The position numbers and the translations under genes were made by a program. The notes beneath the pieces were generated by a model, which did no database searches, was not told the origin of the DNA, and saw nothing but the letters and a program-made list of their open reading frames with translations. From assembly GCF_000724625.1 (NCBI RefSeq), contig NZ_CP007139.1, forward strand, positions 1,488,001 through 1,552,000: a DNA stretch of 64,000 bases, read 5' to 3'. Positions 4,683 to 51,823 of this stretch are shown here, in pieces. Numbering within the stretch: the stretch's first letter is position 1; every line of letters begins with the position of its first letter. Source of the DNA: Fimbriimonas ginsengisoli Gsoil 348. Lineage in GTDB: Bacteria > Armatimonadota > Fimbriimonadia > Fimbriimonadales > Fimbriimonadaceae.

Positions 4683-7643
4683 ATGTCGTCACCGAACGAT
4701 CCCCTCATCTTTATCTGCTATTCCCAACATGGAAAGGGGCCGGATTGGAAAAGTAGAGTGCTCGAAGCCTTCCGGACTTTCGAAGCGAACGACCTTATTT
4801 GCTTGTGGCACGACAATTTGACCCCGGTGGCGATCAATTGGGACAAGCACATCATTGAACAACTGGTGAAGGCGAAGATCGCCATCGTCCTGCTCACTCC
4901 GGAAGCACTTCGGTCGGATTACATCGTCAAGAAAGAGCTTCCGATGCTAAAGGAAATGTACGACGCGGAACGGATTCAGATTATCCCGCTGCCCTGCGAA
5001 CCGTGCGACTTAGGCACTCATTCCTGGTTGAACGGTTGCCAGGCACCGAACAGCCTGAAGCCACTCGACGGAGATGAGGAAGAAAAGAAGCGCTCACTTC
5101 AAGAACTGGTAGTACGGGTCACTCAGCGGTTGACCGAAATCGCCTTAGAGCAAGGCGGGATTTCCGATCGACATACACCCCTTGATCCGAAATGGGTGAG
5201 CTTAGACAAATTGCGACTCGACGGTGATCGCAAGCGAGATGTGGGTCGACTCATCGGCCGTGACCAAGAAATCGCCCTGCTGAATCTAGCATTTGCCCGT
5301 TCCGATGTAAAGACGCAAGTGTTGGTGGCACCAGGCGGAGCGGGAAAGACGATGCTCACGCGTTACTGGCTTGAGACGCTTCAGGCGAAGAATTGGAAAG
5401 GGGTTGAACGCGTTTACGCATGGAGCTTCTATAGCCAAGGTACGAGAGAAGAGCTTCAAGCTTCGGAGCAGCCTTTCTTCGAAGACGCGGTGAAGTTCTT
5501 CGAGGTAGAGAACGATGCGACTCTCTCTCCCACGGATCGGGGGCGCAGGCTAGCTCAAGCGATCGCCGAGAAACCCACATTGCTGATTTTGGACGGTATC
5601 GAACCTCTCCAGGTACCAAAGGGTGAGGCAAAAGAGGGACGGTTGCGGGCATCCGGGATCCGGAGCATGCTCAGCCATCTGGGCAACTTTAGTAGCAAGG
5701 ATAAATGGTCTGGCTTGTGTCTCATTTCGACGCGGGAAGAGATCGTCGATCTCCAGGCGACCCAAAGGGGAAGGGCCGATATGTGGGGAGAGGTCCTTTC
5801 GGTCGAGCTCCCACCTCTTAGCGATGAGGCGGGCGCCGAACTGCTTCACAGCGTCGGTGTGAATCGCCTTGGGGTTCGACCGATCAATTGCGATCACGAA
5901 AAGCTGCGGGACATGACCCGCCGAGTCAACGGCCACGCCCTTACGCTGTTCCTCTACGGACAGTATTTGCGCCGAGTTAATCAGGGCGATATTAGTGGGG
6001 CATCGCTCATCCAATTCTCGGAAGAAGACACAGACAACAAGAGGAACGGTACTTCGTTTCGACTATTTCAGACTCTGGAAGCGTGGTTTGCCGGAAGTGG
6101 TGAGGGAACCGAATTTCGCCAACTTGCCATCCTACGCATGATGGGACTTTTCGATCGTCCCGTTTTAATGAGCTGCCTCGAGCACTTAATGCAGGCACCT
6201 CCGATCGAAGGGCTGACCGAGCCGATGTTCGTACGACACAAGGGGGTTGCCCATGACGAGGTAAAGGTACAGCCGATCGAACGGGCGAAGTTTAATCTGG
6301 CCCTGCATCACCTCATCGACTTTGGCCTCGTGTTCTACGCAAACGCGGATGACGAGATAACCACCTTGGACTGCCATCCGCTGGTCCGGGAGTATTTCGC
6401 GGAGCGGCTTAGGACGGATGATCTGGAGGCATGGAAGCAAGCCAATTTGCGGCTGGGTCACTATTACGAGGATCTGGTCGATGAACCTTATCCCAAGGAC
6501 CATGCGAAGCTAGACCTGATTTTTCAGGCGCTTGTTTTCTATGCAAGGGCCGGGATGCCCAAGAAGAGCTATCGAACGTTCAAGCTTCGTATCCTTGCCG
6601 ACGACTATTACGCCACAAAGGGACTGGGAATGCAAGCCGAAGTTTGGGTGGCCTGCAAGACGATCTTACGGCACAACGAAGAACAGATCGATCTCGTGGG
6701 TAAGGCGGATATTCTTCAGCAATTAGGTTATACGGAGCGCTCATTGGGAATGCTTTCGGATGCAATTAAGTCCTTTAATGCATGCTTAGAGATTCGTGAG
6801 GCGAACTATACAGGGTCGAAAGGGGAGGCAAACCTCATTTCGATCGTCGCCGGATTGCTAGGAGTTACGCAGCTCTATTCGGGGGATCTCAGAGGTGGGC
6901 TTTTGAACACGACAAAGGCTGTGAAATTTTCCCAGGGCGCGGAAGACACGCCGAAATACATGTATTCGCTGTCGAGTAAGGGCAAGGTGGAGCATTACCT
7001 CGGCCAGTTCGGCTTAGCGTGCGAAAACCTCCAGAAGGCCTATGAGATGAGTAAAGCTCCGCAGAACCAGCGTGAGCCTTCGAATTGCTCTAACGCTTGT
7101 TTCCGTTGGGGCGAATTGCTTCTTTGGAAGAAAGCGTATGCCGAAGCCCTGGAAGTTGCGGATGATGGTCTGGCGTTTGTCGAGCGAACCGGACTCGGTC
7201 CGATGTTCAAGGCGCTCCTGCAAGTCAACCGAGCTTACGCAATGATGGCCGGGGCCTACCGAAAAGAAGTCGACGCGATCGTGAAAGAACTCCTCGATAC
7301 AGCGCTTCAGAATTTCCGTCGCGGAGGGCTGGATAACGAGACGATCAGGGGTCACCTTGCCTTGGCCCATTACTACGACTGGAGTGGGAATCCGGTCGAG
7401 GCACGTTTCGATCTCGATGAAGCGTGGAGCATGGCGGAACTTGGGCAAATGAGACTGCACATGGCGGATGTCCTACTTCTTCGCGCCCGCCTCTTTGCCG
7501 ATCAACCGGAGCGTCCGTGGGGCGATCCGGAAATGCATTTATTCGATGCCCGCAAACTCATCCTGGAATGCGGCTACCGGCGTCGAGAGGCAGAGTGGAA
7601 TGAATTAGCGGAGCGGCTTAGGGTGCAGGAAACCTGCATTTAA
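4683..7643 (+). CDS. TIR-STAND NTPase with TPR region, probable anti-phage/cell-suicide sensor
   Basis: 986 residues. Residues about 7-150 form a TIR-type domain (FICYSQHGKG, LWHDN, IAIVLLTPEAL) with a glutamate E85 in SDYIVKKEL at the place of the NADase catalytic Glu. A STAND ATPase follows: Walker A PGGAGKT 217-223, VYAWSFYSQGTREE near 244-257, Walker B LLILDG 300-305, and a CLISTREE sensor segment near 346-353. The C-terminal ~350 residues are helical repeats of TPR character. Architecture is that of bacterial NLR-like defence proteins: ligand sensed by repeats, oligomerisation by ATPase, NAD depletion by TIR. Base composition is visibly less GC-rich than its neighbours, and it sits beside toxin-antitoxin debris and a tRNA, suggesting acquisition. 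Confidence 0.85.
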   Translation: MSSPNDPLIFICYSQHGKGPDWKSRVLEAFRTFEANDLICLWHDNLTPVAINWDKHIIEQLVKAKIAIVLLTPEALRSDYIVKKELPMLKEMYDAERIQIIPLPCEPCDLGTHSWLNGCQAPNSLKPLDGDEEEKKRSLQELVVRVTQRLTEIALEQGGISDRHTPLDPKWVSLDKLRLDGDRKRDVGRLIGRDQEIALLNLAFARSDVKTQVLVAPGGAGKTMLTRYWLETLQAKNWKGVERVYAWSFYSQGTREELQASEQPFFEDAVKFFEVENDATLSPTDRGRRLAQAIAEKPTLLILDGIEPLQVPKGEAKEGRLRASGIRSMLSHLGNFSSKDKWSGLCLISTREEIVDLQATQRGRADMWGEVLSVELPPLSDEAGAELLHSVGVNRLGVRPINCDHEKLRDMTRRVNGHALTLFLYGQYLRRVNQGDISGASLIQFSEEDTDNKRNGTSFRLFQTLEAWFAGSGEGTEFRQLAILRMMGLFDRPVLMSCLEHLMQAPPIEGLTEPMFVRHKGVAHDEVKVQPIERAKFNLALHHLIDFGLVFYANADDEITTLDCHPLVREYFAERLRTDDLEAWKQANLRLGHYYEDLVDEPYPKDHAKLDLIFQALVFYARAGMPKKSYRTFKLRILADDYYATKGLGMQAEVWVACKTILRHNEEQIDLVGKADILQQLGYTERSLGMLSDAIKSFNACLEIREANYTGSKGEANLISIVAGLLGVTQLYSGDLRGGLLNTTKAVKFSQGAEDTPKYMYSLSSKGKVEHYLGQFGLACENLQKAYEMSKAPQNQREPSNCSNACFRWGELLLWKKAYAEALEVADDGLAFVERTGLGPMFKALLQVNRAYAMMAGAYRKEVDAIVKELLDTALQNFRRGGLDNETIRGHLALAHYYDWSGNPVEARFDLDEAWSMAELGQMRLHMADVLLLRARLFADQPERPWGDPEMHLFDARKLILECGYRRREAEWNELAERLRVQETCI

Positions 7644-9832: not shown

Positions 9833-9923
9833 TGGAGGAGAGCACGGGAATCGAACCCGAGACGGGGTAAACCGCCCCAACTGTTTAGCAAACAGCGCCC
9901 GTCACCATCAGGGCTTACTCTCC
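9833..9923 (-). tRNA. tRNA-Ser (anticodon GCT)
   Basis: On the minus strand it starts GGAGAGTAAGCCCTGATGG. The anticodon loop is TTGCTAA with anticodon GCT. It has the long variable arm expected of serine tRNAs, the T-loop GTTCGATTC and an encoded CCA (9833-9835). The discriminator base appears to be U rather than the usual G, which is slightly unusual. Confidence 0.9.
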
Positions 9924-10061
9924 TTAGGGTCATTTGTTGGCACGTATAGTAACAGCCCTACCCATCTAAACATGATGGGCAGAAGGCGTCACCTTCCACT
10001 CAAGATCACACTCATTGACGTTCCTCTTTCACATTCGAATATCTCCTAACTCTTGAGAGAT

Positions 10062-16859: not shown

Positions 16860-16912
16860 TTGACTCCGCGCCGAAGCTTCCAGAAGGAGAGCCTGGAGGC
16901 TCGGCAACGTGG

Positions 16913-17060
16913 CACGGGCGGCCCGCCCGTGGGTCTCAGGGGCGGCCCGCCCCTGAGTGATTCACCCGACCAGGGTGATCGTGAGGGTTCATCGGCTGGG
17001 AGCCGATGCTACGTTTACACGACCAGGATGGTCGTGATACGCACGGGCTGGAAGCCCGTG
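16913..17060. repeat. Cluster of six palindromic units (7-bp arms, 5-nt loop)
   Basis: Successive perfect hairpins share one geometry but not one sequence: CACGGGC-GGCCC-GCCCGTG, CAGGGGC-GGCCC-GCCCCTG, TCACCC-GACCA-GGGTGA, CATCGGC-TGGGA-GCCGATG, CACGACC-AGGAT-GGTCGTG, CACGGGC-TGGAA-GCCCGTG. Most arms begin CA and end TG. Same family as the elements at 37.3, 39.6, 41.0 and 47.8 kb. Confidence 0.85.
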
Positions 17061-17070
17061 CCACGGTAGG

Positions 17071-32894: not shown

Positions 32895-33365
32895 GTATGC
32901 CCCGATTCTAACGCGTATTGTGTGGAGAGTGGTTAGCGGTTGGCAGTTGGCAGCTCGGAAACCCGGGCCAACCCCGAAGGGGTGAAATCTGCCAGCCCAG
33001 AGCATGAGCCCTGGGTAACGGGACCGATTAGTTTTCAAGCCCTGAAAGAGGGTGGGGCACTGTGATGTACAGCTCTTAGGGACCCCAAGAGAATCGAAGC
33101 CCCGACCGACCCAAATCGCCTAAGGGGCGGCCCTATCCCTCTCCGCTCGCGAGAGGGGTCGGTGAACCTGAGGAACGAAGGTGAACCGGGGGAGAGGGAC
33201 TCCCGTCCATCAACGCCAACAGTCTATTCCTAATATCCTTAGGTGCTCAACAACACCCTGAACACGTTGACCCATCCTCTTGCAGGCTCGGTTGCTACAT
33301 CTCCTCCTCACCTGGGTCGACGAAGGAGACTCCCTGCAAATACGAAGATGCCCCTCTAAAACCCT
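32895..33365. other. 470-bp intergenic region, no gene seen
   Basis: Contains a TCTCCGCTCGCGAGAGGGG hairpin-type repeat near 33140-33158 and the shared GGGGGAGAGGGA motif near 33190. No open frame here has coding character. Separates the sortilin-like gene from the nucleotidyltransferase pair. Confidence 0.6.
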
Positions 33366-37303: not shown

Positions 37304-37375
37304 CGGACCGCTGGTCTCCAGACCGGCTTCACACGACCAGGATGGTCGTGATACACACGGGCTGGAAGCACCGTG
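37304..37375. repeat. Palindromic units of the 7+5+7 family (partly degenerate)
   Basis: CCGCTGGTCTCCAGACCGG, CACGACC-AGGAT-GGTCGTG, and CACGGGC-TGGAA-GCaCCGTG with one inserted base. Same orientation and order as the last two units at 16913-17060. Confidence 0.75.
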
Positions 37376-37415
37376 CCACAGGCGAATCATGCTATAAGCG
37401 GCAAGGGACCGCCGA

Positions 37416-39551: not shown

Positions 39552-39562
39552 CCCCGCCGTGG

Positions 39563-39604
39563 CACGGGCGGCTCGCCCATGGGTATCTCGGCGGCCCGCC
39601 CGAG
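39563..39604. repeat. Degenerate palindromic units of the 7+5+7 family
   Basis: CACGGGC-GGCTC-GCCCATG (one mismatch) and a CTCGGCGGCCCGCCCGAG hairpin follow the GH36-like gene. These are decayed relatives of the 16.9-kb units. Confidence 0.6.
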
Positions 39605-40999: not shown

Positions 41000-41006
41000 A
41001 ACGTGG

Positions 41007-41101
41007 CACTGGCATCTTGCCAGTGGGTCCCAGGGGCATCCTTGCCCCTGGACCTCCACACGACCTAGAAGGTCGTGATACACACGGGCTGGAAGCCCGT
41101 G
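41007..41101. repeat. Cluster of four palindromic units
   Basis: CACTGGC-ATCTT-GCCAGTG, CAGGGGC-ATCCTT-GCCCCTG, CACGACC-TAGAA-GGTCGTG and CACGGGC-TGGAA-GCCCGTG fill the gap between the TlpA-like gene and the ABC permeases. All arms are different; geometry is conserved (one unit has a 6-nt loop). Confidence 0.85.
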
Positions 41102-41145
41102 CCACCTACAGCGACCAATCCCCATAAACGGCTAATCTCAGAATC

Positions 41146-47768: not shown

Positions 47769-47773
47769 CGTGG

Positions 47774-47868
47774 CACGGGCTTCCGGCCCGTGTGTATCAC
47801 GACCATCCTGGTCGTGTGAACGGTCCAAGGGCAGGATGCCCTTGGGACCCACTGGCAAGATGCCAGTG
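47774..47868. repeat. Cluster of four palindromic units (reverse orientation)
   Basis: CACGGGC-TTCCG-GCCCGTG, CACGACC-ATCCT-GGTCGTG, CAAGGGC-AGGAT-GCCCTTG and CACTGGC-AAGAT-GCCAGTG. Order is broadly the inverse of that at 41007-41101, so the whole block appears as an inverted relative. Confidence 0.85.
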
Positions 47869-47912
47869 CCACCGGTGGGACCCAAATTCGTCGGGGGCTC
47901 GTCGTACGTTAC

Positions 47913-48961: not shown

Positions 48962-51823
48962 CTACTTGGGGATCTCCCGGATGGAGTGGCTGAGGCCCCA
49001 GTCTCGGATGTGGCCTAGGTCGTCGAAGTCGCCGGTGGGCCAGGGGGTGCAGCCGTTGCCGTAGAAGGAGAGGTGGAGCTCGTCGTTCCCGTACCGTAGG
49101 GCATAGAGGATGTTGTCGTGGAAGAAGCATGCGCCCGTCGCCGATGGAGAGCGGTAGCTGGGTTGCTCATAGCGGCGGATGAGCCAGCCGCCCATGTCGG
49201 CGTACGGCACCTGCATCGTGATGTACTGCTCCTTCAGCTCGCCGCCCGGGGCGACTCCGCTGCCGATTAGGTAAATGCGGCCGTCGGGCGAGAATCCAGG
49301 CTCGGGGCTCCACAACAAGGTCATTCGCCGGCGCGCATAAACTCCTGCCACCCACTGCCGCGAGATGAGACGCTCACTGCCGGAATCGGGGAGCCGATAG
49401 CGGACGATCTCGGTCAAACCGCCATGGTCGGGGCCGTCGCCCTGGATGCGCCCGATCCAGACGTCGGTGCCGTCGCCCCCGGTGGAACCGGTGACCGCGC
49501 CGACCGGCGCCTCGCTGCGGAGGGCGAGCGAGTGGATGTCGCCCATCGTAATCCCCGAGCTCGCAAGATTGAAGTAAGCAATGTCTACGGGAAGCGCTTT
49601 ACCACGCCAGAGCAGCAAAACCAGACGGTTGTCGACGGCAAGCACAGTCGGCTGGGCGCCAGCCGTTCGGGGAAGCAGGTTCGGCTCGTGGAGAAGCGGA
49701 CGCCGCGGATCTTCCATCGTCACCGCGCGCAGTACGGTCCCTTTCGCGGTGGGATAAACGACGTAGGTGATCCCCTTTATGTAGGCGACAGTCGGATCGC
49801 CGGTGACGCCCGCACTTTGGTCGGCGAGCTCGTCCGACCATCGGTTCGCCTCCCCGGGTCGATTGGAGCCGGTCCAGGTGCGGACCACGATGCCCCCGTC
49901 TTGGGCATAGACCAGGATCGGACGGTCGCCGTGGAGGGCCACGGCGGGGGCGGAGGTCGCTCGCCCAACCGGAAAGAGTGGCCCAGGATCGGTGCCGTGG
50001 GTGTAGTTCAGATCGCCGTGTACATCCTTTTCGCCGAAGATCCCGTTCCAGTTCCAATCGACCAGCGTCGTCTTACCGTCCGGCCCCGGCTTGATCTTGA
50101 ACCGATAGGGACCCTCGGACAAAAAGTGGACGGTTGCGATCGGGAACGGGAGGATCTCGTCGAGGTGCTCCTCGTTCAGTACAAGGGAGGCGCGGGCGCC
50201 GTCGGAATACCGCACGTTCTCCCCGCTACCATCCAGGCCATACGAATAGGTGTAACTCATCAGACTGGGGTAGAGCGCGCAGCCGGTGTCGCTGTTGTAG
50301 CTGGGGCTCCCATAAAACCCGTCGTGAGCAAGGTCGAGCTGGTGGCCGAACTCGTGGATGAACTCTTGCCAGTGGCCGTTGAAGTGCCCGCGGTCGCCGT
50401 TGATCGCGGAAACGAGCGGACCGCCGTTTTCGGCAAACATGGTGTGGACGATGCCGCGGTGCTCGTGCCGGGGGAAATGGCCGTCGAAATCGCCCATGAC
50501 GACGTTGTGGTCCTTATTGGGCCAGGGCGTGGGGTAGATGAAGTGGATGGCGATGCCGGTGGTGCCGTCGGGATTCTTCAGCGGAATCGAGGCGAAGTAC
50601 TGAGCGACGCGGTTCATCTGTTGCTGTAGCCCACCGAGGTCGACGTCTTCGAACCGCTCGATCTCCACGACGACGTCGCGGTGGCCCACCTTGCAGCCAA
50701 GCGCCTTTAGATCGAGCCCACCGGGATTCACTCGGCCCATCTTCCAAAAGTCGGGAAGGCCGTCGTTGGCGGAGCATAGGAACCCTTTGGCGGCGTCGGT
50801 TTTGTCGTAAGAGAAGTGGATGTAGATGTCTTGGGCGCCCCACCGCTCGCGCCCTTCGTGGTGGCGGATCAGGTCGTCTTTGCCGTTTCCATCGATATCG
50901 GCGACATCCCAGGTGCCGTCGCTCTTTGCAGCTTCAGTGTCCGGAAGCTCCGTTAGATCGACAAAGTCGGTGGCGACTCCGCTGGTGTACAGGCGACGGC
51001 CGACGAGGATATCGGAGAAGGGACGGCCGCGGAACCTGCCAGCCACGAGATGGTCGTCGGGAGAGTGCGTTCCGAGGAGCCGGGGTGGGGCGAGCGCGTC
51101 TTTGGCGACGGCGGCCAGCCAGACATTGCCGCTACTGTCCAGGTAGGCGAGCTGCCCTTTATCGCCGACCTTGACATCTTTGAAGTTGCCTGCGGCGAGC
51201 TGACGGACGCCGGGAAGGGTGGTCTTCAGGGGCTTGGCGACGAAACGGGGCGGGTTACCCGGACTGGTGGCGAGCTTCAAATTGAGAGGACGGTTGTAGA
51301 GGAGAAGGAGCCGGCCGTCTTTCCCAAGGAGCATCACATCGGTATGGAAGTCACCGTCGAAGTCCGCGACGGCGACTTTGAGCGGCGCCTCCGGAATATC
51401 TCGCGGGTCGATCTTGCCGACCTCTTCGATCCGCTGGTACAGCTTGCCGTCGGGAATCCCCTGCGAAGCGAGCCGGAGGGTTCCGTCGGCGAAGATGGTG
51501 AGAACGTCTTTAGCCGGGGGCACCCGGATGAAGTTGCCGGCGGCACAAGCGACGAGCCCTTTCCCGATCGAATCGTGAACGCGGCCGCTGGGGTTCGGCT
51601 TCCCTAGAGGGTCGGTGTGGGACACTTCGATGTTGCTGTCGTCGCCCGGCCCGACGGCGATGAGGTCGGCACGGCCATCCCCGTCGGCATCGCCCGCCAA
51701 GGCGTTCCACGGGCTAGATCCGAAGGCGCTCCTCCAGAATTGCGATGGCGACATGCCGAACGAATCGGCGACAGGGGGTGGTGCTCCGAGAGCCAGAAGG
51801 CCGAGGAGGGCCAGCGCATTCAC
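48962..51823 (-). CDS. Exported FG-GAP/propeller protein with a zinc metalloprotease motif
   Basis: 953 residues, leader ALALLGLLALGAPPPVADSF. N-terminal VCBS/FG-GAP-like Ca-binding blades (GDADGDGRADLIAV, VADFDGDFHTDVMLL, VADIDGNGKDDLIRHHE). A metalloprotease-like core has FIHEFGHQLDLAHDGFYGS: HExxHxLDLAHD, close to metzincin HExxHxxGxxH with L in the Gly place, plus LMSYTYSYG as a Met-turn-like segment. The C-terminal half is a second propeller (FNLASSGITMGDIHSLALRS). Probably a secreted protease or adhesin. Confidence 0.8.
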   Translation of the reverse strand: MNALALLGLLALGAPPPVADSFGMSPSQFWRSAFGSSPWNALAGDADGDGRADLIAVGPGDDSNIEVSHTDPLGKPNPSGRVHDSIGKGLVACAAGNFIRVPPAKDVLTIFADGTLRLASQGIPDGKLYQRIEEVGKIDPRDIPEAPLKVAVADFDGDFHTDVMLLGKDGRLLLLYNRPLNLKLATSPGNPPRFVAKPLKTTLPGVRQLAAGNFKDVKVGDKGQLAYLDSSGNVWLAAVAKDALAPPRLLGTHSPDDHLVAGRFRGRPFSDILVGRRLYTSGVATDFVDLTELPDTEAAKSDGTWDVADIDGNGKDDLIRHHEGRERWGAQDIYIHFSYDKTDAAKGFLCSANDGLPDFWKMGRVNPGGLDLKALGCKVGHRDVVVEIERFEDVDLGGLQQQMNRVAQYFASIPLKNPDGTTGIAIHFIYPTPWPNKDHNVVMGDFDGHFPRHEHRGIVHTMFAENGGPLVSAINGDRGHFNGHWQEFIHEFGHQLDLAHDGFYGSPSYNSDTGCALYPSLMSYTYSYGLDGSGENVRYSDGARASLVLNEEHLDEILPFPIATVHFLSEGPYRFKIKPGPDGKTTLVDWNWNGIFGEKDVHGDLNYTHGTDPGPLFPVGRATSAPAVALHGDRPILVYAQDGGIVVRTWTGSNRPGEANRWSDELADQSAGVTGDPTVAYIKGITYVVYPTAKGTVLRAVTMEDPRRPLLHEPNLLPRTAGAQPTVLAVDNRLVLLLWRGKALPVDIAYFNLASSGITMGDIHSLALRSEAPVGAVTGSTGGDGTDVWIGRIQGDGPDHGGLTEIVRYRLPDSGSERLISRQWVAGVYARRRMTLLWSPEPGFSPDGRIYLIGSGVAPGGELKEQYITMQVPYADMGGWLIRRYEQPSYRSPSATGACFFHDNILYALRYGNDELHLSFYGNGCTPWPTGDFDDLGHIRDWGLSHSIREIPK

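Follow-up and report, generated by a model that had tools for sequence, protein, structure and literature searches.

The short palindromes that recur between genes of Fimbriimonas ginsengisoli Gsoil 348 are very probably REP elements, the non-autonomous mobile DNA of a RAYT/TnpA-REP (HUH, Y1) system. They are identified by their geometry, copy number, subtype pairing, compensated arms, boundaries and placement, together with a RAYT gene bounded by the repeats. Unless stated otherwise, coordinates are those of the window, the 64,000-nt stretch of DNA analysed, which spans bases 1,488,001-1,552,000 of a genome contained in one contig of 5,231,762 bp. The genome sample comprises 1.5 Mb taken in stretches, with genes called by a simple hexamer-based finder; the remainder of the genome was searched by pattern and model.

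Hairpin geometry and the two-hairpin unit

A sequence-only reading of the window had described palindromes of 7-bp arms around a 5-nt loop at five loci (16.9, 37.3, 39.6, 41.0 and 47.8 kb). All five are present, and the loci were placed correctly, although the elements reach slightly further than was thought (16909-17064, 37332-37379, 39559-39604, 41003-41105 and 47770-47872). The window holds 24 exact 7-5-7 palindromes, compared with 5.7 +/- 2.2 in shuffles. In the genome sample, exact palindromes of the form CA-N5, 5-nt loop, N5-TG number 161 in 155.6 kb of intergenic DNA and 21 in 1,344 kb of coding DNA, a 66-fold per-base enrichment. The proposed restriction to intergenic gaps is thus almost, though not fully, exact, 21 units lying in predicted coding sequence. 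Loops of 3, 4, 6, 7 or 8 nt yield just 1-7 CA...TG palindromes each in the same intergenic DNA. A genome search with the pattern CACGGGCTGGAAGCCCGTG, allowing up to three mismatches, returned 205 sites, and the reversed control returned 2. Hairpins do arise more readily at a GC content of about 61%, but the probability that these are chance palindromes of GC-rich DNA is effectively nil: dinucleotide-shuffled intergenic sequence, named beforehand as the test, gives 0.4 where 161 are observed.

The constant geometry stands in a finer form. The first and last bases of the loop pair with each other in 148 of the 161 intergenic palindromes, so the true hairpin has an 8-bp stem and a 3-nt loop, and the exact 7-5-7 description was dropped in its favour. 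On the pyrimidine-rich strand the loop is chiefly TCC, CCC or TCT. Several different arms exist, as had been noted, but they do not vary freely; they form a small set of approximately eight to nine position-specific alleles (CACGGGC, CATCGGC, CACGACC, CACTGGC, CAAGGGC, CAGGGGC, CATGGGC and two minor ones), each present in at least 2 copies. Stem covariation is 0.50, whereas shuffles give 0.13 and slid controls do not exceed 0.13. Because units were selected by the pairing of their first seven pairs, the eighth pair serves as an unbiased test of covariation. It is formed in 32/33 and 30/33 distinct sequences at its two positions (62/66 together), by several pair types and with 12 two-sided changes at each position, which bears out the expectation of compensated arms. 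Such compensation could reflect either selection that keeps the hairpin recognisable or the copying of one arm from the other when hairpins are repaired.

The repeat unit is 47 nt long and consists of a GTGG or GTAG foot, an 8-3-8 hairpin, a 5-nt linker and another 8-3-8 hairpin, the second hairpin lying 24 nt downstream of the first; across the sample the hairpin pitch is 24 or 28 nt. There are 74 tagged (GTGG/GTAG) two-hairpin units in 1.5 Mb, and a covariance model finds at least ~172 two-hairpin units in the genome, a floor in that part of the candidates was scored. Combinations of first arm, linker and second arm are linked within subtypes: alpha (CAYGGGC, TGTAT, CACGACC), beta (GTAG CATCGGC, AACCC, CACGACC), gamma (CACTGGC, GGTCC, CAAGGGC or CAGGGGC) and delta (CACGGGC, GGTAT or similar, CTCGGGC or CAGGGGC). 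No unit among 56 has identical arms, where 8.2 would be expected from a common pool; selected avoidance of identical arms was rejected as the cause, since first and second arms are drawn from separate sets and common descent suffices. The last four bases of the linker are usually GTNN, and the second hairpin of the relative G023 has a complete GTAG foot of its own, which gives the unit the look of two tagged hairpins arranged head to tail. Beta hairpins (GTAG CATCGGC tccca GCCGATG) also occur alone, without a second hairpin, for example at 50332, 467539 and 1776436 of the source genome.

The elements in the window, with scores from the covariance model R1, are as follows.

16909..16955, + strand: delta two-hairpin REP, GTGG CACGGGC ggccc GCCCGTG ggtct CAGGGGC ggccc GCCCCTG; 60.9 bits
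16965..17012, - strand: beta two-hairpin REP, GTAG-tagged; outer hairpin CATCGGC tggga GCCGATG intact (16990-17008), followed by CTAC; inner hairpin decayed; 39.0 bits
17018..17064, - strand: alpha two-hairpin REP, CACGACC aggat GGTCGTG atacg CACGGGC tggaa GCCCGTG CCAC; 70.7 bits
37332..37379, - strand: alpha two-hairpin REP, solo; outer hairpin with one additional base; 61.5 bits
39559..39604, + strand: delta two-hairpin REP, solo, decayed; 42.5 bits
41003..41050, + strand: gamma two-hairpin REP, left half of an inverted pair, GTGG CACTGGC atctt GCCAGTG ggtcc CAGGGGC atcctt GCCCCTG; 60.3 bits
41059..41105, - strand: alpha two-hairpin REP, right half, partner of 41003-41050; 68.5 bits
47770..47816, + strand: alpha two-hairpin REP, left half of an inverted pair; 69.7 bits
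47826..47872, - strand: gamma two-hairpin REP, right half, partner of 47770-47816; 68.7 bits

The cluster at 16,909-17,064 thus reads delta, beta', alpha'. An Rfam scan of the five loci gave no family above the gathering threshold. Elsewhere in the window, a marginal Rfam match to Acido-Lenti-1 RNA (39.2 bits against a cut-off of 37) lies at 32970-33015 (-), within the start of a long ORF; positions 9833-9924 (-) match the Rfam selenocysteine tRNA barely above threshold and are called tRNA-Ser(gct) by ARAGORN, the likelier assignment; and positions 4683-7643 (+) encode a protein of 986 aa that has a TIR domain and matches TPR weakly.

Paired elements, placement and alternative explanations

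Neighbouring units face each other in 22 of 25 pairs, and 15 of these facing pairs are 8-10 nt apart. The facing pairs are alpha-gamma (14), beta-gamma (6), delta-alpha (1) and delta-delta (1). A single homodimer among 22, where ~7 would be expected at random (p = 0.003), suggests that the pair is probably passed on as a whole, like REPINs and BIMEs. Alpha and gamma, sometimes with beta between them, make up a REPIN-like element of ~103 bp with GTGG...CCAC ends. At positions -2/-1 of the foot AC, CC and AA are preferred, and the sequence is mixed further out; this two-nucleotide preference directly before the foot marks the element boundary.

Where the clusters lie would also suit RNA-level 3' elements, that is, terminators or mRNA stabilisers selected for gene expression. 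The median distance of a cluster from the upstream stop codon is 10 nt, convergent gaps hold 37 clusters (15.6 expected) and divergent gaps 5 (22 expected), and the 16.9-kb element, folded as DNA, folds far better than its shuffles (z = -8.6). REPs in general are, however, described as lying in the same kind of place (PMC3733652). Of 79 clusters, 1 has five Ts within 12 nt of its outermost hairpin, so that the T run of an intrinsic terminator is mostly absent, and nothing in a terminator calls for a GTGG foot, a constant 24-nt pitch, inverted pairs of unlike units or a transposase to match. Selection for gene expression is therefore an unlikely origin, although a secondary RNA-level role of the hairpins is possible. 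Less likely still is that the palindromes are operator-like sites of one host DNA-binding protein that organises the nucleoid or chromosome. The many palindromes across the genome fit such a protein, as does the binding of gyrase, IHF and Pol I by REPs elsewhere (PMC2817692), but the presence of several strictly compensated arms points to structure rather than to one duplex sequence, and same-genus relatives are nearly without the elements.

As mobile REP elements, the repeats would be expected to undergo single-strand recognition, cutting and movement, as worked out for other REPs. RAYT would bind the foot and hairpins on single strands exposed by replication and cut at a dinucleotide set by the foot; a GTAG/GTGG foot directs cutting at CT or CC (PMC8266576). 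The element would then be copied or moved to new intergenic sites, most often right after stop codons. The family is mostly absent from same-genus relatives, and no insertion polymorphism is readable at orthologous sites for this reason.

RAYT transposases and their host genes

The source genome encodes 13 PF01797 proteins. A linked RAYT, which the sequence-only reading had proposed looking for, is present at 2.2356 Mb (locus L016) and scores above the cut-off of NF047646, the NCBIfam model for REP-associated tyrosine transposases (83.7 bits versus 80). It is bounded on both sides by inverted two-hairpin REPs (GTGG-CACTGGC... and ...GCCCGTG-CCAC, 739 bp from GTGG to CCAC), the REPtron feature of a RAYT between its own repeats, here inverted. 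A second RAYT (L079) has a perfect 28-bp inverted repeat starting GTGGCGCCGGCTTCCAGCC at both ends, a related GTGG repeat. The beta subtype (GTAG CATCGGC) has no RAYT that is clearly its own. The RAYTs of L011 and L013 were considered as partners of the CATCGGC hairpin and rejected: they belong to ~650-bp elements with ~100-bp terminal inverted repeats, and the hairpin lies ~240 bp outside. These elements (L011 1321-1971, L013 1319-1971) are 98.5% identical, carry a 150-aa IS200-like transposase and are apparently recent copies.

Four RAYT queries, run in one scan of bacterial genomes, yielded 80 homologues, which belong to Planctomycetota, Verrucomicrobiota, Acidobacteriota, Armatimonadota and other groups. 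Of 156 flanks, 81 have a tagged hairpin no more than 200 bp from the RAYT edge, compared with 9/699 control windows, and the hairpin sequence differs between species. The feet at these flanks are GTRG, not the CnGA of TnpA-Y1 class 3 (PMC6006769). The strict 7-5-7/5/7-5-7 pitch is found with other arms at ten RAYT loci (Planctomycetota, Fimbriimonadaceae, Acidobacteriota), almost always no more than 60 bp away from the gene, and the same two-hairpin pitch with other arms occurs in relatives as well. The geometry is thus a rule carried across phyla. The earlier suggestion that the palindromes follow a rule and are not a copied repeat therefore holds between lineages; within the source genome each unit is a copy of one of a few subtypes, whose arms, linker and position are fixed. 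Both the AlphaFold core of a RAYT homologue and profile comparison match 4er8, TnpA-REP bound to a REP hairpin. Across 61 related genomes, RAYT and repeats co-occur in 8, where ~6 are expected, with no clear association, so repeats may outlive their transposase or use others.

The L016 RAYT lies in frame inside a 559-aa zinc alcohol dehydrogenase ORF (PF08240 at 24-123, RAYT at 259-361, PF00107 at 444-515). Most relatives have the gene uninterrupted (best identity 72%), with a short variable loop at the insertion point; a small insertion at this site in G033 was considered as a REP and rejected, its sequence being an unrelated acidic loop. Such residence is widespread, in that 42 of the 80 homologues lie inside ORFs that extend at least 60 residues in frame on each side. 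By Pfam and NCBIfam, the same host family is found on both sides of the RAYT for ValRS, AlaRS, CarB, MetH, IspG, Sua5, the exonuclease VII large subunit, a menaquinone biosynthesis enzyme, a GH38 mannosidase, a helicase and restriction-modification genes; additional hosts are FabZ, DnaE and DUF1156 anti-phage genes. The interrupted housekeeping genes of Planctomycetota and Verrucomicrobiota include the following loci.

valS: L097, L101, L102
ispG: L112, L118, L126
carB: L141, L149, L159
metH: L122, L123, L140
fabZ: L114, L115, L120

CarB is interrupted again in Armatimonadota relatives, apparently at another place. DUF1156 anti-phage and restriction-modification/DNA-methylase genes of distant phyla also carry an in-frame RAYT (L137, L155, L165, L167, L170, and L106, L116, L156, L163, L168), and the ValRS ORF of L097 (1673-5584) contains, besides its RAYT, the REP-like peptides HGQDGRDT/HGQDARAT and GSTGFQP elsewhere in the protein.

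The interrupted copy is the only one above the cut-off for valS and the only one for ispG, in three genomes each, and the only complete one for carB in several; these genomes are mostly draft MAGs, so "only" holds for the available sequence. A tree of 82 RAYTs clusters by host gene (26 label changes versus 44.3 when shuffled, with 0/200 shuffles as low) and has several separate origins, so the guest seems to have been long retained and to have entered many genes. No intein domain was listed when the RAYT insertions were scanned with Pfam. In a predicted FabZ-RAYT fusion the RAYT core is mostly above pLDDT 90; the FabZ part, for which there were no aligned sequences, gave no model, and the prediction is thus no test of host folding.

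The transposase that probably mobilises these REPs, a RAYT, lies hidden in frame in ordinary, often essential genes of several phyla. More specifically, it is likely that the RAYT group serving two-hairpin REPs has its usual home in host genes, in their frame and orientation and between REP hairpins that are translated along with it, and that it persists in the only copies of valS, ispG and carB in several lineages. If so, the host protein must tolerate or remove a guest of ~200 residues, an intein-like lifestyle without an intein, and residence in genes the cell cannot discard suggests how a transposase escapes loss. No description of in-frame RAYT genes was found in a search of the open-access literature. 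A 2018 family survey excluded proteins that were longer than expected, taking them for gene fusions or annotation errors (PMC6006769), and in-frame RAYTs may be among them.

Relation to known REP systems

The palindromes had been thought to match no named family. They do: they are GTAG-superfamily REPs in REPIN/BIME-like inverted pairs with a RAYT link (PMC3733652, PMC6006769, PMC2817692), having a GTAG/GTGG foot rather than the foot of CGTC-tagged REPs, a high copy number, a mostly extragenic location, a RAYT flanked by its own repeats and two inverted REPs as a unit. The closest known system is the GTAG superfamily (PMC3733652), in particular the mostly GTGG-tagged GTAG-20 of Opitutus terrae. 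Shared features include the foot, stems of 6-9 bp, short loops, heterodimers of unlike stems, intergenic positions near 3' ends, RAYT association and occasional in-frame occurrence inside genes, which was already known (PMC3733652). However, head-to-head dimers predominate in GTAG families (PMC3733652), whereas the unit here is head-to-tail, with two hairpins at a fixed 24-nt pitch. A text search of PMC3733652 did not find Armatimonadota.

REP/BIME elements of E. coli (Y and Z REPs) and REPINs of Pseudomonas are alike in their inverted pairs of unlike REPs, RAYT partner and high copy number, but the E. coli REP is a single long bulged hairpin, whereas each unit here has two perfect short hairpins. 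Rickettsia palindromic elements (RPE) are similarly palindromic insertions read in frame in functional proteins; as described in the literature, they carry no RAYT gene and are unrelated in sequence. Inteins with homing endonucleases and IStrons likewise place a DNA-processing enzyme within a conserved gene, either in frame or removed by splicing, but RAYT insertions differ from both in being bounded by REP hairpins. The REP/REPIN kind is itself known; novelty lies in the two-hairpin unit and in the phylum, which extend the RAYT/REP system to Armatimonadota and provide, in the compensated arms, loops and feet, a natural set for testing how RAYTs read DNA.
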